Positions 39,624 through 55,575 of a stretch of DNA of 64,000 nt are shown piece by piece. The stretch spans positions 1 to 64,000 of the forward strand of contig WRKM01000006.1 of NCBI GenBank assembly GCA_009778065.1. The letters run 5' to 3'. The translations under genes were made by a program, and so were the position numbers. Each line of letters begins with the position of its first letter. Position 1 is the stretch's first letter. Under the pieces are notes generated by a model. The model worked only from the letters and a program-made list of their open reading frames with translations. It made no database searches and was not told the DNA's origin. This stretch comes from Oscillospiraceae bacterium. GTDB lineage: Bacteria; Bacillota; Clostridia; Oscillospirales; Ruminococcaceae.

Positions 39624-39638
39624 TATTTTATTAGTCGG
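39603..39638 (+). repeat. 36-bp direct repeat, left copy (3' end of uxaA)
   Basis: The sequence from AAAAATGGCGTGACATTG to TTATTAGTCGG includes the uxaA stop and recurs exactly at 40555-40590. The two copies bracket about 920 bases of small ORFs and gene fragments. This geometry resembles target or attachment sites left by an integration at a gene end. Confidence 0.85.
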
Positions 39639-39647
39639 GTAATTTAT

Positions 39648-39677
39648 TTACGGCTGTGAAACGTAAATTTCATAGAA
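39648..39677 (-). pseudogene. 3' fragment of a lipoprotein gene
   Basis: Read on the minus strand these bases give FYEIYVSQP and a stop, matching the C-terminal end of the lipoprotein genes at 49939 (SYEIYVSQQ) and 47414 (YYVSQP). Nothing of the rest of the gene remains, so this is a tail fragment about 4 kb away from the array. Confidence 0.55.
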
Positions 39678-39681
39678 ATTA

Positions 39682-39855
39682 TTATACGATTTCTTTTGCA
39701 CTTGCGACACGCTTGAAACCATATTTTTTTGCGGCGGCTTCACCAATTCTGTTCACACGTTCCACACGCTCACGGACGGTCATATTCTTTGTTTCCTCGT
39801 AAATCTGCAAGCGAATTTCATTTATCTCTTGCTCGATAGTATTAGGTGTCTTCAT
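39682..39855 (-). CDS. conserved 57-residue protein, antitoxin-like
   Basis: A small ORF starting MKTPNTIEQEINEIRLQIYE and ending YGFKRVASAKEIV. Similar short proteins with an IYEETKxM motif and a C-terminal KKYGF are common in Clostridia beside toxin-like genes, but I cannot name a partner. GGAGG precedes the ATG. The first codons overlap the end of the 41-residue ORF upstream. A decayed copy of its 3' end is at 50881-50920. Confidence 0.55.
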   Translation of the reverse strand: MKTPNTIEQEINEIRLQIYEETKNMTVRERVERVNRIGEAAAKKYGFKRVASAKEIV

Positions 39856-40098: not shown

Positions 40099-40326
40099 TT
40101 AATATTTATGCCCCGAAAGGTAAACAACTTTTTCTTTCTTCACATCATCACCCATGAAATAATCTTGCCTGTCGTAATACGACAAGCCGTGAGAAGTCAT
40201 GCCGCGGAACAACTCCACGACCTCGGCAGATTGAACAGGCTCTTGCCCGAAATCCACAACATCTACAACCACATTCATGTCTTCGGGGAAACTTTTTAAT
40301 AAAATTCGTAGTTCTTTTACAGTCAT
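40099..40326 (-). CDS. conserved small protein (MTVKELR family)
   Basis: A 75-residue protein starting MTVKELRILLKSFPEDMNVV, with an acidic beta-strand-like middle. Similar short proteins with the start MTVKEL and a FPEDM-like turn are frequent in mobile regions of Firmicutes, function unknown. It begins two bases after the stop of a decayed AlbA_2 gene. The same arrangement exists at 52312, where this gene is the broken partner. Confidence 0.6.
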   Translation of the reverse strand: MTVKELRILLKSFPEDMNVVVDVVDFGQEPVQSAEVVELFRGMTSHGLSYYDRQDYFMGDDVKKEKVVYLSGHKY

Positions 40327-40328
40327 CG

Positions 40329-40489
40329 CTAATCCCTCAACTTATATTTTCTGTTTCGATATACGTCAATCGGAATGGATAATATTTTCGTCTTCAAGTT
40401 GCGAAAGCGTTCTTCTCGCCGTCGCTCAGTTTAGGCTCGCCGCCGGAATAAATCTTCGTAAACTTATAAAGACTCCTCACGCCCGAACC
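40329..40489 (-). pseudogene. decayed remnant of an AlbA_2-type gene
   Basis: The bases from the stop at 40329 to about 40425 match the last codons of the gene at 52315 (ending LRD and TAG), then jump to a match with about 52598-52670 (SDGD..GGEPELS region, GVRNLYKF). The middle of the C-terminal part is deleted and the N-terminal two thirds are absent. It is clearly a fragment, not an active gene. Confidence 0.8.
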
Positions 40490-40554
40490 GCCTTTCTTTA
40501 ACGAATATACCACAAAAGCCGCTTTTTGTCAATACCAATCATATAAGTTGTTAT

Positions 40555-40590
40555 AAAAATGGCGTGACATTGTAGTATTTTATTAGTCGG
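40555..40590 (+). repeat. 36-bp direct repeat, right copy
   Basis: Identical to 39603-39638, but here outside any gene. It marks the far edge of the inserted block between uxaA and the ORF at 40596. Confidence 0.85.
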
Positions 40591-40595
40591 ATAAT

Positions 40596-40838
40596 TCATT
40601 GCTCTAATCCATAAGAAACTTTATGCGGGTCGTTTTTCGCGGCAGAGTTTAAGAAATTTTCAAGTTGGGAGTGTTCTCTGTCTTTATAAGATTTCTCAAA
40701 ATACTCTTGCCGCCACCCCGTATAGTCGTAAGCGGATTTCGTTATTGCCGAGATGAACATTTCAATCTCGACTATACCTAAGTTCTTAGAAAGGCAGTCC
40801 ATGCCTTTTTTCAATACTATCTCTTCATTTCTTAACAT
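40596..40838 (-). CDS. conserved small protein of unknown function
   Basis: An 80-residue protein starting MLRNEEIVLKKGMDCLSKNLG, with GIVEIEMFISAITKSAYDYTGWR. The pattern KGM-LGIVE-E-FI-YT-W recurs in small clostridial proteins often near toxin-antitoxin loci, but no function is known. The ATG at 40838 has GGAGG eight bases before it and is preferred to a start 11 codons upstream. Confidence 0.6.
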   Translation of the reverse strand: MLRNEEIVLKKGMDCLSKNLGIVEIEMFISAITKSAYDYTGWRQEYFEKSYKDREHSQLENFLNSAAKNDPHKVSYGLEQ

Positions 40839-41045: not shown

Positions 41046-42086
41046 ATGAGCAATTCAATTACGTTTGTTGACTTATTTTGCGGTATTGGCGGAATACGTC
41101 TTGCCATGGAGAGTTCGGGGTTTAAATGCGTTTTCTCGTGTGACATAAACTCCGAGTGCCAAAATACTTATTATGCCAACTTTGGAGAGTTGCCGAAAGG
41201 CGATATTAAAAAAATCTCTGAAAAATCAATGCCCGACTTTGATATTTTGTGTGCAGGATTCCCCTGTCAGCCCTTTAGCATATCGGGGAAACAGAAAGGG
41301 TTTGAAGATGATAGAGGGTCTATGTTTTTTGAAATATGCCGCTTTATTAAAGAAAAGAATCCTAAAATCGTATTTTTAGAGAATGTCAAGCATTTAATTC
41401 ACCACGATAAAGGTCAAACGCTTAAAACAATTCTTGCCGAACTGCTTTCACTTGGCTATGCTCCCGAATGGAGGTTACTCAACGCTCTCGATTATGGCGT
41501 GCCGCAAAACCGCGAACGCATTATTATCATAGCAACAAGAATAGGAGATTTTGATTTTTCGCAAATAAAAACAACAAAACGTAAGATGTTGGTTGATTTT
41601 CTTGATGAATATGGCGATTTCGAGTATTTGACCGAAAAGGAATATACTCTTATTGAAAACCCTAAAACGCAAAAACAATCCGGACTGTGTTTCGTGGGTT
41701 ATCGAAATAAGTCTATTCGCAAAGCGGGGGTTCGCCCCGGAACCGAACATCTCTCAAGAGTTCACAAGCAACCTAATCGTATATACTCAGTGTTTGGGAC
41801 ACACCCGACACTGCCTTCGCAAGAAACATCGGGGAGGTTTTGGGTTCTCAACCAAGAAAACAAGGTGCGAAAGCTTACTATTGATGAATGTTTCCGTATT
41901 ATGGGTTTCCCCGATGATTTTATTCGTCCTTCAATAGTCGGCACTCAATATAAACAAATCGGAAATTCTGTTTGTGTGCCTATGATTAAGGCGGTATCCA
42001 AAGCGATTAAGAAACAATACTTTAATCCCGAAATTAAGGAGGCGTATATTTATGACCCACGAAGCATTTTTGCGGCAAACGTATGA
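41046..42086 (+). CDS. DNA (cytosine-5) methyltransferase
   Basis: A 346-residue type II modification enzyme. Motif I FVDLFCGIGG (7-16), catalytic Cys74 in GFPCQPFS, ENV at 112-114, RERIIIIA, a target recognition region around residues 215-265, and motif X QIGNSVCVPM are all in order. It methylates C5 of cytosine in a short site I cannot deduce. Its gene overlaps the next by 35 bases, as expected for a restriction-modification pair that must be co-expressed. Confidence 0.95.
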   Translation: MSNSITFVDLFCGIGGIRLAMESSGFKCVFSCDINSECQNTYYANFGELPKGDIKKISEKSMPDFDILCAGFPCQPFSISGKQKGFEDDRGSMFFEICRFIKEKNPKIVFLENVKHLIHHDKGQTLKTILAELLSLGYAPEWRLLNALDYGVPQNRERIIIIATRIGDFDFSQIKTTKRKMLVDFLDEYGDFEYLTEKEYTLIENPKTQKQSGLCFVGYRNKSIRKAGVRPGTEHLSRVHKQPNRIYSVFGTHPTLPSQETSGRFWVLNQENKVRKLTIDECFRIMGFPDDFIRPSIVGTQYKQIGNSVCVPMIKAVSKAIKKQYFNPEIKEAYIYDPRSIFAANV

Positions 42087-43152
42087 ATCTGCTTTAGAAA
42101 AGGCTTTTGATAAGTATTTTGTCTTTGATAAAATTGATAACGATATGAAGAAGCTCGTTGAGTGTATTGTCGAATGCCAATACAAAAGCGTTTTAACAGT
42201 AACCGTAACTTTACTCGCAAATAAAGCGGTTGTGCCTAAACAAGATATGCGTTATCACCAAAAACAGCTACCAAATGGTTATTCCGCAAGAGTAATTGAC
42301 AATAAATACATAACGCCTTTTATGAAAGAGGTGTCTTTCCCTTTTAATTCGCAATCTGCTTGGCTTACTCGCTCTTTTGAACAAGTTTCACCGTTTACAC
42401 TTGATTATCCCGGAAGTATATCCCCCAAAAAAGTAAAGCTTGCTTTTTTAACTTTAATTGATTTTGTTGAAAATAAAGGATTAAATCCTTCTGATGTCTT
42501 GTTTTATATGTTCATGTTGCTGATAAAACAACGCGATAGCATGAAAGTCGAGTTAGCTAAACCACACAGGCTTTCCATATCAGCGATTGTAGAGTTATTG
42601 CAGAAGCATTTCACCGTCAAATATGCCTGTTCGGGTGCTTCAAGATTACCAACTTTGGCGATTTATGCGGCTTATCAATGTATGACCGAACAAGTGCAAC
42701 GCTACAACGGTAAAATACTTTGTTCTTTAGAAAATCACACATCATCTGACACACAGTCGGGGCGAATAGGCGACATTGATGTCAACAACGCAGATGATAC
42801 TGCTTTTGAGGGAGTGGAGATAAAACACGAAATCATCATAACCAAGGCTCTCATTACCGATTCTTACGAGAAATTTAAAATCCACAACACGGACAGGTAT
42901 TATTTGTTGACAACCGCAAATATGGAAAGCGCAGACTGGACGGCTATAAACGAGGAAGTGCAAAGGATAGCCCATATACATGGTTGCCAAGTTATTGTAA
43001 ATGGTGTTTACGATACTTTGAAATACTACTTGCGACTACTTGACGATACTGCTGATTTTATTGACCATTATGTCGAGTGCATGAAAGCAGATACGACAAT
43101 TAAGTTTCAACATAAGACTATGTGGAATGATATAGTGGGCGGGAAGATATAA
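42052..43152 (+). CDS. putative type II restriction endonuclease
   Basis: A 366-residue protein encoded directly after and overlapping the methyltransferase. No PD-(D/E)xK motif is certain; FEGVEIKHEIIITKA (around 255-270) could be the core, with Glu-x-Lys as catalytic pair, and GRIGDIDVNNADDTAFEG may supply the acidic residue. The position strongly suggests the cognate endonuclease. The alternative is another protein of the restriction system, such as an accessory specificity factor. Confidence 0.6.
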   Translation: MTHEAFLRQTYESALEKAFDKYFVFDKIDNDMKKLVECIVECQYKSVLTVTVTLLANKAVVPKQDMRYHQKQLPNGYSARVIDNKYITPFMKEVSFPFNSQSAWLTRSFEQVSPFTLDYPGSISPKKVKLAFLTLIDFVENKGLNPSDVLFYMFMLLIKQRDSMKVELAKPHRLSISAIVELLQKHFTVKYACSGASRLPTLAIYAAYQCMTEQVQRYNGKILCSLENHTSSDTQSGRIGDIDVNNADDTAFEGVEIKHEIIITKALITDSYEKFKIHNTDRYYLLTTANMESADWTAINEEVQRIAHIHGCQVIVNGVYDTLKYYLRLLDDTADFIDHYVECMKADTTIKFQHKTMWNDIVGGKI

Positions 43153-43227
43153 ATGCTAAAAGTAATATTGCCGTTGAACGTTATAAAATAAGACATTCAT
43201 TTAAAATGATAATAAAAGGGGATAATT

Positions 43228-43830
43228 ATGTTTACTAACGTAAATTCAAATCAAAAACGGTTATTAGTAAAAGCTATTGAAAAAGCAAAGGACGGTTTTT
43301 TTACAACAAACGATTTAATATCAGAAAATAGCTACAACGGATATGTACGAGTGCAAAGCATATTAGATGAATTAACGACAATGAGGTTTATTTCAAATAT
43401 TTGTGACGGCGGTTATATGCTTTTGGACAAAGCATTTACATATGAAGAGGATTTAGCAGAATACGACCATCGATTATCTCCGTTGAAAACAAATAATGTA
43501 ATAAATGTGTATGGCGGCGGTAATAACCAAATACAACAAAACACAATCAATTCTACCCAAAGCATAGACTCTGATAATCATTTTGATTACGCAAAAGCCA
43601 TAGAAGTCCTCACGCAGACACTTAATAATATTGACTCATTTAATTTATCATGTGAAAATAAAGAGAGTTTAACAAAAGTTGTAAACGATGCAATTTCCTC
43701 TGCAAGTAACGAAAAAAACAGTATTTTTGTCAAAGAGTCCCTAATTACGATAAAGAATTTTCTTATTGGGGTTACTGGAAGTCTTGCGGCAAGCGGGATT
43801 TTGTATATGCTGTCGAATTTAAGAGTTTAG
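43228..43830 (+). CDS. unknown protein with N-terminal winged helix and C-terminal membrane helix
   Basis: A 200-residue protein. Residues 1-70 look like a winged helix; a VYGGGNNQIQQNTIN segment (about 93-107) resembles the glycine/asparagine spacer seen in bacterial effectors of defence systems; the last ~25 residues form one membrane helix. Sitting right after a restriction-modification pair, it may be an accessory or abortive-infection effector, but this rests only on layout and context. Confidence 0.55.
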   Translation: MFTNVNSNQKRLLVKAIEKAKDGFFTTNDLISENSYNGYVRVQSILDELTTMRFISNICDGGYMLLDKAFTYEEDLAEYDHRLSPLKTNNVINVYGGGNNQIQQNTINSTQSIDSDNHFDYAKAIEVLTQTLNNIDSFNLSCENKESLTKVVNDAISSASNEKNSIFVKESLITIKNFLIGVTGSLAASGILYMLSNLRV

Positions 43831-44052: not shown

Positions 44053-44625
44053 TTATTCCACACGTGTCAATACGGCGTAAAACGAAAGCTCCGGAACAGT
44101 AACCGATATGCTTGAACTGCTCCCCGGGTCACGAGTTAAAACAAAAACCTCTTCAAAATACATGGTGTCACCTTCAATTGTTGCGGTTACAAAATACTCC
44201 TGCCCTTGGTAACTATAATCGGGGGCTTCAACTATTCCCGCATCTATATAAGCGGTAATCACATTCTCGGATTGTGTGAAATTGCGATACGTGCTACTGC
44301 GAACAGTAATGGTCTCAGCTGAATAGTCAACCGTTACTGTTGTTTCGCCGTCTGAATACACTTCAATGTTTTTATCAACATTTGATGTGTCATCCGTTTG
44401 CGTGATTGGAACGTCTGAATGTTGCGGTTGTGTTTGCGATTGCGGTTGCGATTCCTCCGGCGGGGTTTCTTCTTTTGGTGAAGTTTCTTGCGATAATTCC
44501 GGTGTCGTGCTACCGATTTCATTTGTGTTTTCGGTTTCGTTTTCGGGTTCATCGCCGCAAGCCGCTAACGTCAGCGACATTGCGAGGGCTATGATTAGTG
44601 CGAGAATTTTTGTTGTGTTTTTCAT
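44053..44625 (-). CDS. lipoprotein 7 of the tandem array
   Basis: About 190 residues, the last (most downstream) gene of the array. The signal peptide ends in the lipobox LTLAAC (Cys23), followed by a Glu/Pro/Gln/Thr-rich linker to about residue 75 and a compact beta-rich domain of unknown family. The ATG at 44625 has GGAG seven bases before it; an ATG two codons earlier is too close. Its leader is the most diverged of the set (MKNTTKILALI). Anchored on the outer membrane face; binding role unknown. Confidence 0.75.
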   Translation of the reverse strand: MKNTTKILALIIALAMSLTLAACGDEPENETENTNEIGSTTPELSQETSPKEETPPEESQPQSQTQPQHSDVPITQTDDTSNVDKNIEVYSDGETTVTVDYSAETITVRSSTYRNFTQSENVITAYIDAGIVEAPDYSYQGQEYFVTATIEGDTMYFEEVFVLTRDPGSSSSISVTVPELSFYAVLTRVE

Positions 44626-44691
44626 GTTCATGCTCCTTATTAATTTTATTAACAATTGTTTTACACGTGAATAAAGGTAACTTACCGCCGA

Positions 44692-46257
44692 TTAACTTGA
44701 GCTATTTGCTATTATAAGCTCATCGCCCGTGCCGTCGGTGTGGATACGGTAAATTTCGTCGCTTATTTTATAAAAGAGCCAATCTCCCGCCACGTTCAAA
44801 TAAGAACCGTCTGCGTTGTTCAACTGCACATCTCCCGTGCCGTCCGTCCCAATACTGCGCAAGCCAATCGGAGTATCGCCGTACCGGTCAGGGAAATAGA
44901 AAATTTTATCGCCGCTGACAACAAACTGTTCGCATCCCTTCTCAATCAGCGTGACATTTTCCTTAGTGTCGATGTGGAATTTATGCAGAGTTCTATTTTC
45001 GGTGTAGTAAATCCAATCGCCATCCACGATGCTTCGGTAAATATGCTCGACCGGCAAAATAATGCTATCCCTCGCCGAGCCGTCTTTTTTGACCCTGAAA
45101 ATCGTGTCGTCTGCCTCTCCCTCATAACCTTGCCGATAGTAAACCCAATCGCCCTCTATCCCGACCATAAAGCATGAACCCTCGGTGGTTAGCTGTGTGT
45201 CCTCCGTGCCGTCAGTACGGATTCGGCAGACATTGGTAGAATTACCGCTATAATCATTATAATAAATCCAATCGCCCTCGAAAATGAACGGCGAGCTGAT
45301 GCCTTCCGGGGGTATCTTTTGCAACCCCAGACCGTCTGTGCGAAGCCTGAACATGCCTTTGTTGCTTGTGTTTGCATAAATAAAGTCTCCGATGACATTG
45401 AGGGGTGTGTGGAAATAATACCCCGGCTGTTCTAACTTGATAAGCTCCGAGCCATCGGCACTCATTTTGTAAATCGAGCTACCTTTCAACATGTAAATCC
45501 AGTCGCCTTTTTCCGCGACATAGCCCTCGAACGCGATGTTGCTGTTTGAGATTCCGCGCTCGTTCGGGTCGGCGGAGTCGGGAGGAACAATGGAATCACG
45601 GTGCGTAAGCATTATACGCGATGACGGTTGCGGCATATCATCTAAAAATTCTCCTGAACCGTCCGCGTTCCAGACAAAGGTGTTGCTCCGCACAAGAACG
45701 TCATTGACCATGACTTCAAAATAATATTCCGCCGGACATTCCTCAAAAACACCGTAGGTCAAAGAATAAGCCTTGACGGTATCTTCATCTTTGGAGGCAT
45801 AGGGATAGTGGTCTACATGCTGCATAGACCAGAGAAAGGAGCTTTCCCCGAGCGGCATATGAACATTAGGCTCGTGTGCCTCTCCGTTGATGAATAGAGT
45901 AAAATTGCTTATCCGCGGCGGGAAAAAATTAAATTCACTTGACTCCCGTACGCCCGCGCCTGTGAACAGTAGGCTACCTCCGGCAACCTGAGTGATAGTA
46001 GCGATTTTTCCCGACTCGTCGCTGTTACCGCTAATACCCAATTGCGCGTAAAGAAATTCGCTCTCCGCACTCTGTGTTTCATTGCCGCCGTTGCCCTGTG
46101 TCGGGTTCGTTGACAGGGCTTCTGCTCCGTTGTCGAGGTTTTCAGCGTTTGTGTTTTGGTTGTTGGGGATGTTTGATGAAGCTTCATCACCGCAAGCCGC
46201 TAAAGTCAGCGACATTGCGAGGGCTATGATTAGTGCGAGGATTTTTGTTATTTTCAT
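44692..46257 (-). CDS. lipoprotein 6 of the array, DUF5050-like propeller
   Basis: A 521-residue lipoprotein (lipobox LTLAAC, Cys21). After an Asn/Glu-rich linker the first ~170 mature residues form an unassigned domain; the second half has repeated GDWIYYxxxxxNxxxRIRTDGTE units, about seven, the pattern of DUF5050 beta-propellers found on clostridial surfaces. Such propellers are thought to bind ligands, with no known enzymatic activity. No cell-wall sorting signal. Confidence 0.8.
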   Translation of the reverse strand: MKITKILALIIALAMSLTLAACGDEASSNIPNNQNTNAENLDNGAEALSTNPTQGNGGNETQSAESEFLYAQLGISGNSDESGKIATITQVAGGSLLFTGAGVRESSEFNFFPPRISNFTLFINGEAHEPNVHMPLGESSFLWSMQHVDHYPYASKDEDTVKAYSLTYGVFEECPAEYYFEVMVNDVLVRSNTFVWNADGSGEFLDDMPQPSSRIMLTHRDSIVPPDSADPNERGISNSNIAFEGYVAEKGDWIYMLKGSSIYKMSADGSELIKLEQPGYYFHTPLNVIGDFIYANTSNKGMFRLRTDGLGLQKIPPEGISSPFIFEGDWIYYNDYSGNSTNVCRIRTDGTEDTQLTTEGSCFMVGIEGDWVYYRQGYEGEADDTIFRVKKDGSARDSIILPVEHIYRSIVDGDWIYYTENRTLHKFHIDTKENVTLIEKGCEQFVVSGDKIFYFPDRYGDTPIGLRSIGTDGTGDVQLNNADGSYLNVAGDWLFYKISDEIYRIHTDGTGDELIIANSSS

Positions 46258-46297
46258 TGTTTGGGGGTTCCTTTCGTGATAATTTATTTGGTGTCGT

Positions 46298-47383
46298 TTA
46301 CCCTCTCGGACCGTCCGAAAGCTGAAATTGCGGGGGAGGTTCAGGCGCGGGAATGTCTATTACTTCACCGTCCGGTCCTACCGCGCTTATATAGACCAAT
46401 GCTACTTCGTCCCTGTAGCCCGGTTCAGTATATATATACTGTGTCACATCGTCAATCGTGATTGTCGAGCCCGGCGGCAGAAATTCCGGCATTTCGGGAA
46501 AAACGGGGTAACTAAGAAAACGCTGACCTTCTCCCAAATCCACATGATTAAAGCGCACGCTGAATTCCGGTTTAGTCCCGGGTCGTCTGTAGTTGAGTTT
46601 GAACGTCACGACCTCGCCGGGAAGCACAAAATTCAACGCCTCATTTCGATTCCACCATTGACAGGCGAGTTCTCCGTCCGTAAGAAGGATAGATTCGAGA
46701 CTAAACTCATAGGGCGAATTATTGATTATCGTTGCTTTAAGACCGGGGTACATTAGGTCGGGCTCGGAATCATCAAGCGCGAGAGTCACGTCATAACCGT
46801 TTTCGGTAATTTCAGCCCGATACCAAACCGTGGCGGCTGTATCCACAAGCTCTATCACAAGTACGGGGTCTTCGATTTCGACCCATTCCCCATCAACAAA
46901 GTCGCCATTCAGATTACCGGAAACAGCATATGGCAAGTCCTCTTTTCGCTCTTCTATTTTAGCGACAAACCAATCGGCGGTAATCTCCGGACCTTCGACA
47001 ACTGACCGGGGTTGGAATCTATATTGCGCTCCCTCGTCTTTGCTTGGGCTAAAGGTAAGCACAAGAATATTGTCACCACCGTCGCCCGCCGTGGCAGATA
47101 TGTCAAAGGTATTCCCTATGGAATTTCTAAAATAGCTTGTAATGTTGGACATAACCTGACCGTCGTTGTCGATAATCGCCTGCATACGGTGTTGATGTAC
47201 GGACGGCGTTTCTGTCCCGTTGTCGGGGGGTTCTGCTCCGTTGTCGGGGGTGTTGTTGTCGGGGGTTTCTGCGTTTGTGTTTTGGTTGTTGGGGGTATTT
47301 GATGAAGCTTCATCACTGCAAGCCGCTAACGTCAGCGACATTGCGAGGGCTATGATTAGTGCGATGATTTTTGTTACTTTCAT
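46298..47383 (-). CDS. lipoprotein 5 of the array
   Basis: A 361-residue lipoprotein with the shared leader (Cys22) and an extended linker of PDNGTE-type repeats (about residues 35-65). The mature part contains a beta-rich region with LKATIINNSPYEFSLES, which looks like an immunoglobulin-like strand pattern of a surface-exposed domain. No family assigned. The leader matches those of its neighbours much more closely than the mature part does. Confidence 0.72.
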   Translation of the reverse strand: MKVTKIIALIIALAMSLTLAACSDEASSNTPNNQNTNAETPDNNTPDNGAEPPDNGTETPSVHQHRMQAIIDNDGQVMSNITSYFRNSIGNTFDISATAGDGGDNILVLTFSPSKDEGAQYRFQPRSVVEGPEITADWFVAKIEERKEDLPYAVSGNLNGDFVDGEWVEIEDPVLVIELVDTAATVWYRAEITENGYDVTLALDDSEPDLMYPGLKATIINNSPYEFSLESILLTDGELACQWWNRNEALNFVLPGEVVTFKLNYRRPGTKPEFSVRFNHVDLGEGQRFLSYPVFPEMPEFLPPGSTITIDDVTQYIYTEPGYRDEVALVYISAVGPDGEVIDIPAPEPPPQFQLSDGPRG

Positions 47384-47413
47384 TTTTTGTAATTTCCTTT
47401 CGTGGTACTTTGT

Positions 47414-48061
47414 TTACGGCTGTGAAACATAATAAGCATATCCCAATTCATCTAATTTGCTGATAACCTCATCCATAGTATATCCCACACCAAATAATGG
47501 ATTACCGTCCAACGCGCCATACTCGACGTTATCTACAACTATCCCAATTGGAGATTCTTTAGCCGCCTCATTGCTTCTAAATACTATTTTATCCATAAAA
47601 GGCGCGGTTCGGGTCGTAGTAGCCTTGTTCGTATAAATATCGAAATCAAAGTTTATGAGATAGTATGCAACAAAACGCGGATTAGTATCGTTAATATAAA
47701 CAATATAATAATCGGTTGTCGCATAGAAATAACCCTTGTCGCCCCTGTGACTTTCAAGCGGCGGTTCTATATACGGCGGTGTGCCGTTGTCGGGAACATC
47801 AGAACCGTCATTAAATATGCCGCCTTGCGGGTCTTGGGGTGTGCCGGAGTCATTATCGCCGTTGTCCGTTGTTTGGTTCGGTGAAGGGGTTTCTGTTCCG
47901 TTGTCGGGGGTGTTGTTGTCGGGGGTTTCTGCGTTTGCACCTTGATTATTTGCGGGTGAGTCATTATTGGGGGTATTTGATGAAGCTTCATCACCGCAAG
48001 CCGCTAAAGTCAGCGACATTGCGAGGGCTATGATTAGTGCGAGGATTTTTGTTACTTTCAT
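47414..48061 (-). CDS. lipoprotein 4 of the array
   Basis: A 215-residue lipoprotein, shared leader and lipobox at Cys22, then an Asn/Asp/Pro/Thr-rich linker to about residue 85 and a small mature domain. It ends YAYYVSQP, almost the same tail as other members and as two loose fragments at 39648 and 50857. Function unknown. Confidence 0.72.
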   Translation of the reverse strand: MKVTKILALIIALAMSLTLAACGDEASSNTPNNDSPANNQGANAETPDNNTPDNGTETPSPNQTTDNGDNDSGTPQDPQGGIFNDGSDVPDNGTPPYIEPPLESHRGDKGYFYATTDYYIVYINDTNPRFVAYYLINFDFDIYTNKATTTRTAPFMDKIVFRSNEAAKESPIGIVVDNVEYGALDGNPLFGVGYTMDEVISKLDELGYAYYVSQP

Positions 48062-48096
48062 TTTTTTGAGTTCCTTTCATTTAGTTTAAGTTTGTT

Positions 48097-49908
48097 TTAT
48101 CCTATGACGCGTAAATCTGTGCCGTCCATGCGAATTGCGGAAATCTGTGGTGCATTGGCGGTAAAATAAATCCATTCTCCGACTATACAGAAGTATACAT
48201 TTTCGGTAACGCCGGCTAATACAGCAAGCTCGGTCAAATCAGAACCGTCAAGGCGGGCTCTATGCAGTACGCCGCCTCTAACATAATAAATCATATCATT
48301 GGCGATATTGAAAGTTTCTATATAAAATTCGATGCCGATACCGCCGCCTGTAAGGGGATTGTCGCTTGTGCCTGTATTTGGCGAAACGATAGTTTGAGGT
48401 CTGTTTGTGGGAATTAGTCTTAACTCGTTTCCGTCACCGTCAATCTCGACAATGCCGCCGCCCCTTGTCGCATTTCCGTATGATACGACATATAGTAATC
48501 CGTTTTCGACAATCATTTTAAAAATTTGCGGCGAGTCAATGACAATCTCTGTCTCCTCTGTTCCGTCAGTTCGGATTTTCTTAGTAGCACTATTGCTTCT
48601 TTGCCGATAATAAATCCAATCCCCGTCTACATTCAAATAATCGACCGAATATTCAACCAATTTCTGTGGTTCTGTGCCGTCTGTGCGAACCTTAAAAATG
48701 CCGTCAAAGGTTTTGTAATAAATCCAATCGCCTATAACGGTAACATCACCTAACCCCGCTGAGGCGCGTACAACTTGTGTTAAATCTGTTCCGTCAGTTC
48801 GTATTTTATAAATCGACATACTCCCTGCATAATAAATCCAGTCGCCGACTACGTTGATACTGCCGAAACAAAACCAATCGGAGTACCCGTCTCGCTCTAT
48901 TAAAGTTGTTTCGCCTGTGCCGTCAACATTAATTTTATAGAGCGACCTGTCATATGAGCGGTAATAAATCCAGTCGTCTTTTATTGCCGCATTTCCCCCG
49001 TTTGAAAGGTTACTGTTTGTGTTGCCGCGTTCGTTGGGGTCAACAGCAGGTTCTAAGACTACGGGTTCTTCGGGTATTTGGGTGGTCGGCGATGCGGTTG
49101 TAGACGGGGGTGTTGTGGTTGTAGGCACGGAGTCGGGTATAACTGCGTTTCCCGATAAATTTAACCACATAGCGGGACGAACGCCGTGCTCGTTTTTGAC
49201 ACCGAAGCCGTTTCGGTCTTCGATGCCGCCGTCGGCTTTGACGGGTGCGGCAGCATAACTAATGCCGCCGGGCGACCGAAGCCACCAATAGAGAGCTTCG
49301 CCGCCGGAATCATACACTCTCCTCGCCAAATCGTCTGCGAAATACGCTCTTGCTTCATCTATGCTAAGCAGGAAAATTTTGTCTACTGTGTTGTTGCCGC
49401 CGGGCGTATCGTAAGTTGGATTATTGTTGTTGATTAGCGTTGTTTCGATAATCCGCGCTTGGTCTGCTTGGCTGAAGCTACTCAAAAACTCGCCGTTTAA
49501 GTAGGCGCGAATTGTGCTGTCTTCCCATGTTATGTCACCGCCGGGTTCATGGTATGGGCGTGCTTCCAATACATACTCGCTGATGACCAACGTCCTGCCG
49601 TCCTGCACGTCAAGCACGCGCCAGTCATATCCGCCGAATGGAATAACATCGCCGATATTTGCTGAACCGGATGCATCGCCGCCGTTGCCGAGGTCATTGT
49701 CGCCGTTGCCCTGCACCTCGTTCGTTGACGGTGTTTCAGTTCCGTTGTCGGGGGTGGTGTCGTTGTTGTCGGGGTTTTCATTGTTTTGCTCGTTTTGCGG
49801 ATTGCGTTCTCTCGGCGTAAGTCCCTCCGATGAATTATCGCCGCAAGCCGCTAACGTCAGCGACATTGCGAGGGCTAAGATTAGTGCGAGGATTTTTGTT
49901 ACTTTCAT
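48097..49908 (-). CDS. lipoprotein 3 of the array, DUF6273 plus propeller
   Basis: The largest member, 603 residues. After the shared leader (Cys22) and linker comes a DUF6273-type domain (about 85-255) with YDWRVLDVQDGRTLVISEY, TWEDSTIRAYLNGEF and GVRPAMWLNL, then a Pro/Thr linker and a C-terminal DUF5050-like propeller with repeated DWIYYxxxxxIYKIRTDGT. DUF6273 occurs in many clostridial surface and secreted proteins and its ligand is unknown. Confidence 0.82.
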   Translation of the reverse strand: MKVTKILALILALAMSLTLAACGDNSSEGLTPRERNPQNEQNNENPDNNDTTPDNGTETPSTNEVQGNGDNDLGNGGDASGSANIGDVIPFGGYDWRVLDVQDGRTLVISEYVLEARPYHEPGGDITWEDSTIRAYLNGEFLSSFSQADQARIIETTLINNNNPTYDTPGGNNTVDKIFLLSIDEARAYFADDLARRVYDSGGEALYWWLRSPGGISYAAAPVKADGGIEDRNGFGVKNEHGVRPAMWLNLSGNAVIPDSVPTTTTPPSTTASPTTQIPEEPVVLEPAVDPNERGNTNSNLSNGGNAAIKDDWIYYRSYDRSLYKINVDGTGETTLIERDGYSDWFCFGSINVVGDWIYYAGSMSIYKIRTDGTDLTQVVRASAGLGDVTVIGDWIYYKTFDGIFKVRTDGTEPQKLVEYSVDYLNVDGDWIYYRQRSNSATKKIRTDGTEETEIVIDSPQIFKMIVENGLLYVVSYGNATRGGGIVEIDGDGNELRLIPTNRPQTIVSPNTGTSDNPLTGGGIGIEFYIETFNIANDMIYYVRGGVLHRARLDGSDLTELAVLAGVTENVYFCIVGEWIYFTANAPQISAIRMDGTDLRVIG

Positions 49909-49938
49909 TTTTTGTGTTTTCCTTTCGTGGTATTTTGT

Positions 49939-50826
49939 TTACTGCTGTGAAACATAAATTTCATAACTAAATTCAGACACCGGATATTCTATTTGCTTAT
50001 AATGGGATTGTAAATCGTCTAAACTTGCCGTCAGCTTTTCTAAAAGTTCGGCTTTTGTTGTGCTTTTGTAATCGTAATAATCTCTGGTATTTCCATACAT
50101 ATTGTAATACGCTACATCGTAAAATTGTGCACGCGGACCCTTAGCATATATTATGTTGTCCATCAAATAATAAGCCGAGCTACTGTCATCTGCGCTGAAG
50201 CTATTCACTGCTTGGTCTGCGTTTGGATAGGCTTTTTTGGCAAATATTGCGACGCCATTACTCTCCCCGTCCGGATAATTCCATACCTCTGCCCCGACGC
50301 CGTCCCAAAAAAAGTACACAACATAGCCCGTTGTTATCTCGTCGGGTGGCGGCGTTTGTTCAACCCAGTTTCCATTTGAGTCAATATAGCCATCCCATGC
50401 CGGTTGAACCCAATTTCCATTTGAGTCAGTATAGCCAGCCGAAGGTCGTATAATAATTTCATACGAATAAGCTATATAATCGTTTGTAAGAGCGTAGAAA
50501 AATTCCGCATCGCTTTCGTGTGTTTTAAAGGATTCGGGTAAGTAAAGCGGTGGGCGGGTTTCCCATACAGGCGGGGTTCTATGCCATGGTGGTATGAGAT
50601 GTAGAAATTCTTCGGGGGTTGCTGTTCCGTTGCCGGGGGTGTTGTTGTCGTTGTTGTCGGGGTTTTCTGCTCCGTTGTCGGGGTTTTCTGCGTTTGTGCC
50701 TTGGTTGTTTGCTGACGGGTCGTTGTTGGGGGTATTTGATGAAGGCGTAGCTTCATCGCCGCAAGCCGCTAAGGTCAGCGACATTGCGAGGGCTATGATT
50801 AGCGCGAGGATTTTTGTTGCTTTCAT
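49939..50826 (-). CDS. lipoprotein 2 of the array
   Basis: A 295-residue lipoprotein. The leader is MKATKILALI with Cys22 in the lipobox; the linker is rich in PDNGAE and NNDNN. A short duplication, YxDSNGNWVxP (around 132-155), is present in the mature part, encoded by a near-perfect nucleotide repeat at about 50345-50440. The end SYEIYVSQQ is the parent form of the loose tail fragments. Ligand unknown. Confidence 0.72.
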   Translation of the reverse strand: MKATKILALIIALAMSLTLAACGDEATPSSNTPNNDPSANNQGTNAENPDNGAENPDNNDNNTPGNGTATPEEFLHLIPPWHRTPPVWETRPPLYLPESFKTHESDAEFFYALTNDYIAYSYEIIIRPSAGYTDSNGNWVQPAWDGYIDSNGNWVEQTPPPDEITTGYVVYFFWDGVGAEVWNYPDGESNGVAIFAKKAYPNADQAVNSFSADDSSSAYYLMDNIIYAKGPRAQFYDVAYYNMYGNTRDYYDYKSTTKAELLEKLTASLDDLQSHYKQIEYPVSEFSYEIYVSQQ

Positions 50827-50856
50827 TGTTTGGGGGTTCCTTTCGTGGTATTTTGT

Positions 50857-50920
50857 TTACGGCTGTGAAACATAAATTTCATAGCTAAATTATTGCGCGG
50901 TTTCTTTCGCACTTGCGGTT
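50857..50920 (-). pseudogene. tail fragment of a lipoprotein gene plus decayed 57-residue ORF
   Basis: The minus strand reads FSYEIYVSQP and stop (50857 upward), immediately before the leader of lipoprotein 2. The adjacent bases to about 50920 match the 3' end of the ORF at 39682 (KEIV region: CGCACTTGCG, TTTCTTTCGC). The same two pieces are joined in the same order at 39648-39700, so they formed one unit before they were scattered. Confidence 0.65.
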
Positions 50921-50998
50921 TTGTTCAGCCGCTCTGTTACGCTGTGTTGCTCTTATTATTGCAGATTCAGCCACATGGTCAATCGCATAAAGCGATTT

Positions 50999-52183
50999 CT
51001 ACTCCACCACGTCCGCGACCTCAAAAGTTAGTCCTTCGTAAATTCTAATAAACGTGTTATCGTCCGGGTCATGCAAAGACAAACCGTGCATATTAAAATC
51101 TGCGACAACCCAAAACTCGATGATGTCGTCGAAGCCGAACCCCGGCTTAAACTGTTCCGTCCATACGGCGGTGAGCCCCGTTTCATCGATGCTTATCTGC
51201 ATATCTTCGGGGTTTCTTATTACTATGTCCTTTTCTAAATCCAATGTCATATAATCCCATACGTCGTAGCCAAGGTCTCCGTAACCAATTCTGAGTCCGG
51301 TGGAGACAGAGCCACCGCGGTCTGTGCCTATTGCGAACAATCCTCCTATGCAGGCATCTCCGGAAAAGTTATAAATCCCGGTAATGGTCCAATATGCGAA
51401 GAATATCGTCGCGGGGTCTCTTTCTATCCATTCCCACGGCATGATATATGTCGGCTTTATTGACGTGTCTTTGTAAACAAACGACATCGTACCGTCACCG
51501 TTATTGGTCGCGCTTAATGTGATAGCGGTAGGGTCGAAGACGAATTCGCTTAACTTTGTATGGGGTACGAGTTCATCAAACGGCACAATAACATCGTTAT
51601 TGCTGAACTTAATATACGTTTGTCTGTCTTGCTCTAAGCCCGAAATAGTAAAGCCTCGAACCTCAACATCTCCTATGTCGTCTGCGCTGTACTGTTCCGG
51701 CATAAAAAATATCAGCAACACGCTGTCACCGTCTATTTTTATGGGGTCGTAGCCGTTGTTATGTGTATACCTAACCGCAGCACCGTAAATGCTTAAAGGC
51801 TTGTAAAAACCATTGCCGAAATGTATACCTATATCACTGAAAGTGCCCGGATTCAACTCCAGCGCGGCGAGCCTTTCCGGAAGCTCGGGGATTGTTATGC
51901 GCATGGCAATCTCCTGCCCTTGTTCATGTTTTCCGCCTATGCCCACTTTAAGCTCGGATACGAGCTCCTGTCCCTGAGGTATGCTGTCGGCGTTACCCTG
52001 TGTTTGGTTCTCTGACAGGGTTTCTGCTCCGTTGTCGGGGTTTTCTGCGTTTGTGCCTTGGCTATTTGCGGGTAGGTCGTTGTTGGGGGTATTTGATGAA
52101 GGCGTAGCTTCATCGCCGCAAGCCGCTAACGTCAGCGACATTGCGAGGGCTAAGATTAACGCGAGGATTTTTGTTACTTTCAT
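50999..52183 (-). CDS. lipoprotein 1 of the array
   Basis: A 394-residue lipoprotein, first in the direction of transcription. Shared leader (Cys22), linker to about residue 72, then a beta-rich mature part of about 320 residues without a recognised family. The end is charged and not the VSQ tail. A gap of 172 bases with gene fragments separates it from lipoprotein 2. Confidence 0.73.
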   Translation of the reverse strand: MKVTKILALILALAMSLTLAACGDEATPSSNTPNNDLPANSQGTNAENPDNGAETLSENQTQGNADSIPQGQELVSELKVGIGGKHEQGQEIAMRITIPELPERLAALELNPGTFSDIGIHFGNGFYKPLSIYGAAVRYTHNNGYDPIKIDGDSVLLIFFMPEQYSADDIGDVEVRGFTISGLEQDRQTYIKFSNNDVIVPFDELVPHTKLSEFVFDPTAITLSATNNGDGTMSFVYKDTSIKPTYIMPWEWIERDPATIFFAYWTITGIYNFSGDACIGGLFAIGTDRGGSVSTGLRIGYGDLGYDVWDYMTLDLEKDIVIRNPEDMQISIDETGLTAVWTEQFKPGFGFDDIIEFWVVADFNMHGLSLHDPDDNTFIRIYEGLTFEVADVVE

Positions 52184-52222: not shown

Positions 52223-52312
52223 TTAAATAATAGTTGCGTTTTGGGGGACAAGTTCGGGGGGTTCCTTCATATACGTTACCGTACTATTCATTCGTAGTTC
52301 TTTTACAGTCAT
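52223..52312 (-). pseudogene. truncated MTVKELR gene
   Basis: Starts MTVKELR exactly as the 75-residue gene at 40099, then switches at codon 8 into unrelated sequence (MNSTVTYMKEPPEL) and stops after 29 residues. The break lies at CGTAGTTC, where similarity with the other locus ends. It starts two bases after the stop of the AlbA_2 gene at 52315. Confidence 0.7.
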
Positions 52313-52314
52313 CG

Positions 52315-53733
52315 CTAATCCCTCAACTTATATTTTCTGTTCCGATTTGCACCAATCGGAATGATAATATTTTCGTCTTCAAGTTGCGAAAGCGTTCTTC
52401 TCGCTGTCTTTGAACTGCGATTGATAACGCTCGCTATATCTGCGGCACTTGCTTCTCCGTTTGTGGAAAGGTACGCAATTATTTTTTCGCGGTAATTATT
52501 ATCGGACATTTTATTGGACACTTTATTGGACACTTTATCGGACATTTGCATTTCTGTGTCCAACAACTTAAACGGCACAATCGTCTTAAACACATCGCCA
52601 TCGCTGAGTTCAGGCTCGCCGCCGGAATAAATTTTTGTAAACTTATAAAGGTTCCTCACGCCCGAACCAAGCACATCAGCTCGCCCGATGTTAATGAAAA
52701 AATTTGCAAGTAACGGATTTTTCGGAAACGGCGCGAAGTTATCGGGGTCGATTTTACCGGGCGTTTTCGGCAAGCTCCAGTTCTCGGTCGTAATTCGTTC
52801 GCGTTCAATTATAATCTTCGCAGGGTAGGCACTCGTGTAGTCGCGATGAACGAGAATATTGCTGACAAGCTCGCGTGCAATTGAAGCACGGACACTCACC
52901 GACTGCCCGTTGATAATATGAAACCTGTCAAGCGTGTGCTTGCTTATGAAGTCAATGAGTTGCTCGTAGGCATCAATCAAATTTGTCGATACCATCAAGC
53001 GGTCATCATAACGGTCGAGGTCGTCGCGGCGGCAGATTGCATCGGTAACATAATTCGCGGTGCATGAACGAATGACATCATCTTTCCCGAACAGCAAAAT
53101 CGCCGCAAGGTTGTACCCGGTACTGCCAAGCTCGCGGCTCTCTTGATACAAGCCCGCGCTTTTTATAATTTCCTCATCGCTCATGCCCACCCACGGGTGG
53201 TCGGGAATCCGATTAGTCGCCAAGCGGCGAACCTTCGGCAAGAGCCGCGCAAAATCAAAGTCCTCATCTTTGGCGTAAGGAAAAATTTTGCGTTCGGAAT
53301 AATCTGCGGCTTTGCGGCGATGAATCTGCGAAACCATTTCGGAGTTACGGGTTATATCCATGTCGCCGTCTTCGGCGCGGTCAAAAATTTTCCCGCCGAG
53401 CATAACCACCTGCGAGTTGGGCGGCACATAACACCACAGGATTGTTTTGCCGCCAAGCTCTGCTTCCTCCAACGAGATGAAAAGTGTTGGTGCGAACCTC
53501 TGCGGATTGTTGAGTAGGTTGGCGAAATCTTTTTTCATTTGAGCGACAGCTTTTTTATTCACGCCGACAACTTTCCCATCGTCCTCAACACCGAGCAAGA
53601 TATGACCGCCGTAACGATTCGAGAAAGATGACACGGTTTCATAAACGCTACTCGGAAGCTCGTCCTTGCATCGTTTGAACTCAACCGTGAGTCCCTCGCC
53701 GTCGTGAATGAGTTGTTTTAGTTTTGTGAACAT
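52315..53733 (-). CDS. AlbA_2/Schlafen-like ATP-binding protein
   Basis: A 472-residue protein of the same family as 28738-30264. The N-terminal AlbA_2 domain reads EFKRCKDELPSSVYETVSSF and GGHILLGVEDDGKVVGV; the ATP-binding part has ELVSNILVHRDYTSAYP and ADVLGSGVRNLYKF; a winged helix with NRSSKTARRTLSQLE ends it. The linker before it has SDKVSNKVSNKMSDNN, another VSN-type repeat. Regulator-like; function not established. A decayed copy is at 40329. Confidence 0.82.
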   Translation of the reverse strand: MFTKLKQLIHDGEGLTVEFKRCKDELPSSVYETVSSFSNRYGGHILLGVEDDGKVVGVNKKAVAQMKKDFANLLNNPQRFAPTLFISLEEAELGGKTILWCYVPPNSQVVMLGGKIFDRAEDGDMDITRNSEMVSQIHRRKAADYSERKIFPYAKDEDFDFARLLPKVRRLATNRIPDHPWVGMSDEEIIKSAGLYQESRELGSTGYNLAAILLFGKDDVIRSCTANYVTDAICRRDDLDRYDDRLMVSTNLIDAYEQLIDFISKHTLDRFHIINGQSVSVRASIARELVSNILVHRDYTSAYPAKIIIERERITTENWSLPKTPGKIDPDNFAPFPKNPLLANFFINIGRADVLGSGVRNLYKFTKIYSGGEPELSDGDVFKTIVPFKLLDTEMQMSDKVSNKVSNKMSDNNYREKIIAYLSTNGEASAADIASVINRSSKTARRTLSQLEDENIIIPIGANRNRKYKLRD

Positions 53734-53851: not shown

Positions 53852-53890
53852 TTAATCGGAGATTAGTGCGAGGATTTTTGTTGCTTTCAT
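53852..53890 (-). pseudogene. truncated lipoprotein leader fragment
   Basis: Reads MKATKILALISD and stop on the minus strand, preceded by the same GAAAGGAACCCCC binding-site block as the lipoprotein genes. It is the first ten codons of an eighth member, cut off and left between ptsI and the AlbA_2 gene. Confidence 0.8.
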
Positions 53891-53916
53891 TTTTGGGGGT
53901 TCCTTTCATGATTAAA

Positions 53917-55575
53917 TTAAATAATAGTCGCATTTGGCGGGATTATCGCTCTTATTCTTTCCCTAAGCGGCAAGAGCATATTCGGCGACACTGAAAGTTC
54001 ATCAACGCCCATGTTTAAAAATATTTCGGTAAGCTCTAAGTCTGCGGCGATTTCGCCGCATATACCGACCCATATACCCGCATCCTTCGCCGATTTAACC
54101 GTCATTTCAATCATTTTCATGACAGCGGGGTGATGAGGTTCGTAAAAAGAGCCGATGTTGCTGTTCTGCCTGTCTGCCGCTAAGGTGTATTGGGTAAGGT
54201 CGTTTGTACCTATGCTGAAAAAGTCCACCATTTCGGCGAGTTCCGCACTTATTATAACGGCGGCGGGGGTTTCTACCATAATTCCAAACTCGGTTTTATT
54301 ATTAAGAGGTATTTCTTCACGCTTTAAATCCGATTTCACTTCTTCGATGAGTTTAAGTACTTCCCCTACCTCCCACACCGAAGTAACCATAGGAATCATA
54401 ATGGATATATTCCCGAATGCGGAAGCTCTGTATAAAGCGCGGAGCTGTGTTTTGAAAATTTGAGGCTCGGAAAGGCAGAGCCGCACGGCGCGAAGCCCCA
54501 TTGCAGGGTTTTCCTCCTTCGGCATTTTAAAATAACTTACCTGTTTATCCGCGCCTATATCAAGTGTGCGGATAATGGTTTTCTTTCCGTTCATGTGAGC
54601 GGCGACTTTTTTATAAGCGGCAAACTGCTCTTCCTCTGTCGGCGCGTTTTTTCTGTCTAAAAATAAAAACTCGCTTCTGAAAAGCCCGATACCCTCTGCA
54701 TCATTATTAACCGCATCATCAATGTCGGACACGTGATTCACATTTGCGTAAAGATTAATTTTTCTTCCGTCCGCCGTTACGCTCGGAAGCCCTTTGAGTT
54801 TATTTAACAACTCGCGTTTTTTACGAATTTCATCAAGCTTTTCGCTCATTGCTTTTATTACAACCTCATCGGGTTCTATGTAAAGTTTGCCCGTGAAGCC
54901 ATCTAAAATTGCGTGTTTTCCGTCTAAGCTTTCGATATTTGCGATATTTGCGGAAATTTCCCGAAACCCGAAAACGGCGGGTAAAGCCAAAGAACGCGCA
55001 AGTATGGCTGTGTGTGAATTAACCCCGCCTTTCACGGTTGCTATACCTAAAACCATTTTTTTATCAAGCCCGACAGCCTCACCCGGCGTAATGTCGTCTG
55101 CGATAATTATAGACGGAGTTGTAATTTCATATTGTCCATAAAGCGCGGGACACAGAATTTTTTGAATGCGTCCCGATATATCCAATACATCTATTGCACG
55201 CTCTTTCATGTAGTCATCGTCCATAGCTGAAAACATCGCGCTGAATTTTTCCGCTGTTCGCTCTACTGCATACTCGGCGTTTACATTTTGCTCGCTTATT
55301 ATAGCCATAACAGATTCGATATAATCCAAGTCTTCGAGCATCATTTTGTGAATATCAAAGATTGCCGCGTTTTCCTCGCCTAAGGTTTCCTTTGTTTCTT
55401 CGTATAACCGGTCGAGTTGTAAACATGCTTTAATGCGCGCTTCATCAAAACGCGCAGTTTCTTTTTCGGGGTCATCAATTTTTTTGCGTCCTATTTCCAC
55501 CGCTTTATTTTTCAAGAAATATAAAGTTCCTATTGCTATGCCATCGGAAATCCGCACGCCCTCTATAATTTTCAA
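53917..55575 (-). CDS. ptsI: PTS enzyme I (PEP-protein phosphotransferase)
   Basis: A 552-residue enzyme that starts the sugar phosphotransferase chain by taking phosphate from PEP. Phosphohistidine His188 is in GGVNSHTAIL; the PEP-binding domain has EGIGLFRSEFLF and GIMVETPAA. Last gene of a complete PTS operon (EIIA, HPr, EIICB, NagA, EI). Its start overlaps the nagA stop. Confidence 0.95.
   Translation of the reverse strand: MKIIEGVRISDGIAIGTLYFLKNKAVEIGRKKIDDPEKETARFDEARIKACLQLDRLYEETKETLGEENAAIFDIHKMMLEDLDYIESVMAIISEQNVNAEYAVERTAEKFSAMFSAMDDDYMKERAIDVLDISGRIQKILCPALYGQYEITTPSIIIADDITPGEAVGLDKKMVLGIATVKGGVNSHTAILARSLALPAVFGFREISANIANIESLDGKHAILDGFTGKLYIEPDEVVIKAMSEKLDEIRKKRELLNKLKGLPSVTADGRKINLYANVNHVSDIDDAVNNDAEGIGLFRSEFLFLDRKNAPTEEEQFAAYKKVAAHMNGKKTIIRTLDIGADKQVSYFKMPKEENPAMGLRAVRLCLSEPQIFKTQLRALYRASAFGNISIMIPMVTSVWEVGEVLKLIEEVKSDLKREEIPLNNKTEFGIMVETPAAVIISAELAEMVDFFSIGTNDLTQYTLAADRQNSNIGSFYEPHHPAVMKMIEMTVKSAKDAGIWVGICGEIAADLELTEIFLNMGVDELSVSPNMLLPLRERIRAIIPPNATII

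Follow-up and report, generated by a model that had tools for sequence, protein, structure and literature searches.

The window analysed here is a 64,000-nucleotide stretch of DNA from an Oscillospiraceae bacterium (assembly GCA_009778065.1, contig WRKM01000006.1, positions 1 to 64,000; source genome referred to as G000), and our subject is an array of seven consecutive lipoprotein genes at 44053-52183, in which closely similar N-terminal leaders head mature parts that mostly differ. All seven open reading frames (ORFs) lie on the minus strand, internal to a contig of 107,084 bases. The genes are numbered g1 to g7 by increasing coordinate and transcription runs from g7 to g1; c14a, c14b, c16, C15 and C3 denote further genes or contigs of G000. 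The first-pass annotation had described seven tandem genes with near-identical leaders at this position, and the ORF positions as well as the leader comparison bear this out. At the start of each gene a leader of the type MK..TKI(L/I)ALI(I/L)ALAMSLTLAAC(G/S) was found, hereafter leader A. A lipobox, LAAC[GS], was judged by eye to lie near residue 20-24 in seven of seven proteins, and the array proteins are presumably exported and lipid-anchored.

The first gene in the direction of transcription, g7 (50999..52183), consists of leader A (52115..52183, minus strand; 23 codons up to Cys-Gly), a linker and a body that occurs at 94% nucleotide identity in G397, a genome of another family, where it stands behind a different leader, leader B. 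In g6 (49939..50826), leader A is joined to a body whose family we call YVSQP, a name taken from its C-terminus, and g4 (47414..48061) has a diverged body of this type. In the case of g5 (48097..49908), leader A precedes DUF6273 and DUF5050, and in the case of g2 (44692..46257) an N-terminal domain and DUF5050; relatives of g2 in the genomes G045 and G397 carry other leaders. The body of g3 (46298..47383) has no relatives in the genomes searched. Finally, g1 (44053..44625) has its own upstream region and first codons, an array-like leader from about nucleotide 28, and relatives in G045 and G046.

Domains were assigned with Pfam, in a scan that covered about 20 of the 74 window ORFs of at least 110 amino acids. 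The gathering cut-off was passed by DUF5050 in g2 (130.6 bits) and by DUF5050 (111.6 bits) and DUF6273 (107.6 bits) in g5, while no Pfam domain stood above it in g1, g3, g4, g6 or g7. Thus, the earlier tally of two DUF5050 and one DUF6273 domains is correct, but its four unassigned proteins become five, because DUF6273 and the second DUF5050 both lie in g5. Likewise, most bodies are unrelated past the linker, as had been claimed, but g4 and g6 belong to one diverged family. Sequence searches of the Protein Data Bank (PDB) returned weak relatives for g5, including a propeller-like protein, and none for g7, g3 or a YVSQP profile. The structure model of the YVSQP body (predicted local distance difference test, pLDDT, of 73) had no PDB match at E<=0.001, and the g7 model was unusable (pLDDT 32). 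A promoter scan gave 26 sites versus 16.6 in shuffles, which does not fix the number of promoters; promoter and terminator counts as a whole were modestly above, or near, shuffled values.

Leader A also occurs outside the array, on two other contigs, in c14a (L001:7869-8681), c14b (L001:9995-10798) and c16 (L002:7176-7976), whose bodies are all of the YVSQP type. Over 60 nucleotides around the lipobox, the ten leader-A genes show a mean nucleotide identity of 93% (45 pairs), and where two leaders have the same residue the codon is identical at 628 of 741 positions. In 19 other lipoprotein leaders of G000 used as controls, the mean identity was 43% (171 pairs) with identical codons at 338 of 773 positions, values inflated by two biases, as the controls were picked non-randomly by weak similarity to leader A and contain two small groups of related leaders. 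These controls were the remaining lipoprotein-like matches to leader A (21 matches, of which 20 were fetched and 19 yielded a leader). Codon usage alone would give an identical-codon fraction of 0.33.

In six of the seven genes, the similarity begins upstream of the start, at a distance of about 16 to 60 bases; it enters the linker and then stops. Its boundaries vary from gene to gene, and the ends of the leader-side matches are not fixed: g6 and g7 are 94% identical over about -38..+163, g2 and g3 89% over -31..+129, g3 and g4 86% over -17..+158 (end point about +158 to +176), and in g5 the leader similarity ends at +72. With leaders at 93% and similarity ending in or near the linker, the leader is indeed much more alike than the rest at the DNA level, as first noted. 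The upstream GAAAGGAA block, which had been described as shared throughout, is common to six of the array genes but absent from g1. An exact leader-A DNA pattern had 0 matches in a species-genome collection and 0 in viral contigs, the own genome possibly being excluded from these collections; therefore, leader A is not widespread at the DNA level.

Because several leader-A genes have bodies of one family, leader and body could be compared within G000. The genes g6, c14a, c14b and c16 form the family ending in YVSQP/Q, with g4 as its diverged member. Summed over the three pairs of g6, c14a and c14b, 35 of 37 fourfold-degenerate sites are identical in the leaders versus 43 of 90 in the bodies (pooled body totals exclude g4). 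In the case of c16, the leader is an outlier (7 or 8 of 11-12 fourfold sites), yet the body is close to those of g6 (29/39) and c14b (31/43). Therefore, silent sites in the leader are able to vary, and the nearest relative by leader is not the nearest by body. A different situation is met in g1, whose first residues, from 44625, are MKNTTKIL... and whose match to the array extends only over nucleotides from about 7-12 to 78. Up to nucleotide 27, g1 agrees with its G045 relative at six of seven informative sites; from nucleotide 28, it agrees with the array consensus at 12 of 12. The relatives of g1 in G045 and G046 carry their own leader and adjoin genes which we take to be purN-like, and in G045, g2 has as its relative a single gene, located elsewhere and headed by yet another leader.

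Further genes of G000 extend this picture. Two more DUF6273-type genes (L057 and L058, on contigs C35 and C31) have quite different leaders, so not every DUF6273-type body has joined leader A. On contig C3 (L087:509-2471), a pair of neighbouring lipoprotein genes is 94% identical over 427 bp before running into unrelated bodies, one of which has a TSP3-type repeat. The shared stretch comprises about 110 bp of upstream sequence, a leader unrelated to leader A and an acidic linker. Since this pair shows the same pattern with another leader, the process extends beyond leader A. A third leader family (..LILGTAAGCSETLP) was observed in several genes on L084, L085 and L086 (contigs C35, C28 and C1); in these genes the first mature part looks homologous, and one copy runs into a long extra region.

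Comparison with other genomes was most informative for the bodies. When those of g3, g7 and g6 were searched in a sample of 394 genomes of the order, only one genome other than G000 was found, namely G397, the metagenome-assembled genome (MAG) WRKO01. Scanning a species-genome collection with six peptide patterns likewise returned a sole relative of g7, on WRKO01000013.1 of an Oscillospiraceae MAG. The g7-type gene of G397 (L103:8432-9613) has ORFs to its left and right within a contig of 58,883 bases. The putatively exchanged segment (50992..52003, minus strand) runs from the linker to 7 nucleotides past the stop codon and matches L103:8425-9431 at 93% nucleotide identity over 1013 alignment columns. 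Within the body, identity is 0.93 for amino acids and 0.94 for nucleotides, with 101 of 116 fourfold sites identical; in leader plus linker the corresponding values are 0.41, 0.54 and 5 of 11. The genome background between G000 and G397, taken from two genes that we presume to be gatB and gatA, is 48 of 136 and 66 of 184 fourfold sites (35-36%). From this contrast it follows that the g7 body was shared recently and its leader was not. The g7 pair changes its level of identity in the linker, around +180..+230, and drops off at the stop codon. The junction is narrow, because g7 resembles g6 at 94% up to +163 and G397 from about +180..+230.

In the case of the DUF6273 body of g5, compared with the G397 gene m2e, 37 of 49 fourfold sites are identical in the body and 10 of 19 in leader plus linker. 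In addition, 95 bp of g4 (47700-47794) are 82% identical in nucleotides to a G397 leader-B gene. The GC content at third codon positions is 0.54-0.55 in the g7 body, and in gatB it is 0.45 in G000 and 0.77 in G397. This comparison tentatively suggests that G397 was the recipient of the g7 body, perhaps with leader B already attached.

Leader B (MKTTKIFALAIALIM.FALAACS) heads nine genes of G397: two on L103, four on L114 (one of them with a deviating start), two on L115 and one on L116. Their bodies are of the g7 type, the YVSQP/g4 types, the g2 type with DUF5050 (33% amino acid identity to g2) and the DUF6273 type, to which come an LCCL fusion and two others. The fusion gene (L114:4323-5339) combines a g4-like part with the LCCL domain. 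Bodies of the g7, YVSQP/g4, g2 and DUF6273 types thus stand behind leader B in G397 and behind leader A in G000. A leader-B gene with a YVSQP-like body also exists in G000, C15 (L003:4082-4765), which is 90% identical to G397 in nucleotides over 133 bp. With C15 and the G397 genes taken together, both leaders therefore occur with both g7 and YVSQP-type bodies across the two genomes. The presumed gatB and gatA genes adjoin the leader-B array of G397 (L114:7867-10778) and lie about 5 kb from c16 in G000 (L002:12928-15792), possibly by chance.

To describe these combinations, leader pairs were compared in a matrix of the ten leader-A genes of G000 and the nine G397 genes; C15, the G045 and G046 genes and six weaker G397 matches (C5, C6, C26, C3, C1 and C11) were excluded. 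Leader nucleotide identity was 0.872 within the same genome for different bodies (65 pairs) and 0.900 for the same body (16 pairs), versus 0.660 between genomes for the same body (23 pairs) and 0.623 for different bodies (67 pairs). In permutations, which like the pair counts serve as guides only, 0 of 5000 were as extreme for the genome label and 1740 of 5000 for the body-type label. For 19 of 19 genes, the nearest leader was one of the same genome; in 15 cases it headed a body of another type, four types being single-member. Leader identity follows the genome, not the body type.

The distribution of these elements is narrow. The genus set comprised 71 draft genomes, the own included, with one per species; 41 of them reach a completeness of 90% or more at a contamination of 5% or less. 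Leader A at high identity was found only in the own genome, and two other genus matches at E<=1e-8 reach 45-47% at the protein level. In G007, the closest species by the PEP-utilizer region, no leader match was better than E 0.0037; the contig of G007 ends beside the PEP-utilizer gene, so that the array position is not comparable. At E<=0.01, the g3 and g7 bodies were found in 0 of the 70 other genus genomes and g1 in two of them. The YVSQP body occurred in one of 148 sampled genomes of the family, the own one, and in the family of G397 the g7 and g4-like bodies occurred in one of 18 genomes, G397 itself. A search of IMG/VR, plasmids and phages, made with g7 only, gave no relatives. Relatives with the same genes in the same order and with leader and body equally diverged were not seen, as the other 70 genus drafts lack leader A at high identity and the g3 and g7 bodies.

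Altogether, we consider it probable that recombination brought the array together as a collection of lipoproteins, in which a repeated 5' module has been joined to unrelated mature domains that partly move horizontally. The comparisons show that leaders and bodies differ in their history and that one recently shared body is found in two genomes with different leaders. The leader-anchored shuffling or gene conversion proposed in the first-pass annotation is supported by the cross-family pairs of g7 and DUF6273, by the permutations in which leaders followed genome and not body, and by the contrast of 35/37 versus 43/90 sites in the YVSQP family. The 5' module would comprise the ribosome-binding region, leader A and the start of the linker, which is rich in Asn, Pro and Thr. 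On the leader side, homologous recombination and unequal crossing over between repeated leader modules would most likely be at work; on the body side, joints would form within linkers, via short low-complexity homology or illegitimate joining. Gene conversion and unequal crossing over among tandem and dispersed copies could keep the leaders of each genome alike, and some mature domains would be exchanged horizontally within the order. Plausible agents are homologous recombination of the RecA type and microhomology in linkers, and the outcome may diversify the cell envelope or surface. The recombination of leaders and mature domains is shown here as an event of the evolutionary past; ongoing or programmed switching is not part of the claim.

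Several points weigh against this interpretation. Firstly, the tandem genes are not independent, so that the sample is overstated by the permutations as well as by the pair counts. Leader B also occurs outside G397, in C15 of G000, and identity between leaders of one genome and those of the other is still 44-71%; part of the likeness between the leaders is thus shared ancestry or selection. Secondly, only g7 and DUF6273 look recent, besides the 95 bp of g4, and the cross-genome pairs of g2 and most YVSQP bodies are old (24-46% amino acid identity). The low-GC g7 gene of G397 may also have entered whole with leader B, the swap then having occurred in another donor. Thirdly, the cross-family case rests on one MAG, and the data are single assemblies. 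Linkers are of low complexity and hard to align. Similar residue choice could in part account for a 20-bp linker motif (CAGGGYAACGGC..) located near the transition from leader to body in g2, g5, several leader-B genes and, in diverged form, g7. Finally, the test on g1 used distant relatives (37% amino acid identity) and a hand-typed array consensus, with the first 12 nucleotides aligned by hand.

Overlapping with the recombinational collection, and in our view a credible minority explanation, is gene conversion alone, by which whole genes would be inherited or imported and only the leader then locally overwritten. This would suit g1, which keeps its own upstream region and first codons and becomes array-like from nucleotide 28, and also the dispersed copies on other contigs, which have the same leader. 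However, between the g7 body and the g6 leader lies an orphan YVSQP-type 3' end (50857..50889, minus strand; FSYEIYVSQP and stop), as if the g7 body had replaced the middle of a resident gene, and this fits insertion of a body better than the import of a complete gene. The two processes are hard to separate, and probably both act. More speculative, and rather unlikely, is the idea that a leader-acceptor module owned by the lineage captures leaderless exoprotein domains from a horizontal pool, with joints at conserved linker and small-ORF-tail sequences, as an integron-like platform in at least two families of the order. If so, imported surface domains would come at once under the host's own export signal. 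When the likeness to integrons was checked, no integrase was found in the four scanned neighbours, and the leader-side match ends differ between genes.

Ordinary tandem duplication, in which one gene would have been copied, with the leader held by purifying selection and the bodies diverging past recognition, is improbable. It would agree with the same-strand tandem order and with g4, g6, c14a, c14b and c16, which are paralogues with diverged bodies. However, DUF5050, DUF6273 and the rest are different families and not diverged copies of one body, the silent sites of the leaders are near identical, unlike those of other lipoprotein leaders, and in the g7 and DUF6273 pairs the same body has different leaders in two genomes.

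The nearest precedent, by analogy, is given by the multigene loci Vpma of Mycoplasma agalactiae and Vsp of M. bovis, whose genes share a conserved 5' untranslated region and signal peptide but encode mature proteins that differ (PMC2268961). The array too has a conserved 5' region (the upstream part of g1 excepted) and signal peptide with different mature parts, and this common layout is what would favour dedicated phase variation of the Vpma/Vsp type, by site-specific recombination at the shared 5' region (PMC2268961). In those systems, the Xer1 recombinase, encoded near the locus, brings about inversions by which a gene is joined to one promoter. Here, in contrast, all seven genes lie on one strand and no inversion is visible in this assembly, the domains belong to different families, copies are dispersed, and similarity boundaries vary from gene to gene. 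Of four neighbouring genes scanned within 39.6-53.9 kb, none had a recombinase domain, of the tyrosine type or otherwise, a more distant gene being possible. With no recombinase in the scanned neighbours, a single strand and no fixed joint site, a Vpma-type switch is very improbable. The cross-species pattern is also reversed: Vpma and Vsp genes have no significant homology beyond the 5'/N-terminal region (PMC2268961), whereas here bodies are shared and leaders differ. Least probable of all is an artefact of assembly or binning in one or both genomes. It would be favoured by the draft state of both and by G397 being a MAG, but the shared body is 93-94% and not 100% identical and hence not carried-over G000 DNA, it lies inside the 58,883-base contig flanked by ORFs, the nine leader-B-like genes of G397 are spread over three contigs, and the G000 array is within its 107,084-base contig.

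The modular logic seems closest to that of polymorphic toxins, which are diversified by recombination with cassettes (PMC3482391), and of SitA modular lipoproteins with escort domains of about 375 amino acids (PMC8546572). The likeness lies in a constant N-terminal module with exchangeable C-terminal domains; unlike SitA, the constant part here is a 23-codon leader and a linker. No Pfam toxin families were found in the seven array and ten leader-B proteins, and no search was aimed at immunity genes. Models of DUF6273 resemble C-type lectins, and in the account cited DUF6273 is a phage target of diversity-generating retroelements (PMC10743442), whereas in g5 it forms the body of a predicted lipoprotein of the cell. 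Literature searches, with subscription papers mostly outside their scope, gave no account of this locus or of such an exchange of leader and body.

In mycoplasmas, lipoprotein families with a shared leader are known phase-variable systems. The cross-species pattern is the opposite here: two bacteria from different families of one order share mature domains, while most leader-bearing genes keep the leader typical of their genome. Signal peptide and body would then be separately evolving units, and bacteria could by this route gain new envelope proteins ready for export. The signature, a leader that tracks the genome and a body that tracks the pool, is searchable at scale.

Smaller features of the minus strand accompany the leaders. 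The linker motif CAGGGCAACGGCGACAATGA lies at 49694..49713 in g5 and at 46079..46098 in g2, and similar motifs are found in leader-B linkers. Next to the orphan 3' end in the g7-g6 interval there is also the tail (50890..50916) of a small ORF from an unnamed family. A 16-bp stretch like this tail stands upstream of two leader-B genes of G397 (L114:4295-4310 and L115:1767-1782). A second orphan YVSQP 3' end, at 39638..39699 behind a small ORF, is 84% identical over 62-64 bp to the junction at 50847-50910. Upstream of g7, a small ORF at 52223..52312 with the tail ..ELVPQNATII resembles the ORF upstream of c16. The small ORFs upstream of leaders were considered as antitoxins, without support, as no named family stood above the cut-off.

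A solitary leader-A start with spacer (53861..53910, minus strand) lies directly downstream of the PEP-utilizer gene (53917-55575). This gene ends in ..RERIRAIIPPNATII, with a longer C-terminus than in the nearest species, where it ends in ..RGKIRGMI. In sequence, these added residues are similar to the tail of the c16 upstream small ORF, and the leader-A start comes after them (53861-53980). A leader-like start was also found after c14a, ahead of a gene matching PDC-S02 models (L001:8734-9840), which thus lies beside leader-A genes. At 40270-40600 of the window there is a broken copy of the 3' part of an AlbA_2/Schlafen-type gene located at 52315-53733, and a small ORF start, MTVKELR, follows both. 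Like the PDC-S02-type gene, other neighbours of the leader-A genes are of defence type, namely a cytosine-5 DNA methylase and an AbiTi-like protein (padloc E 4.7e-20) at 41046-43830 of the window.

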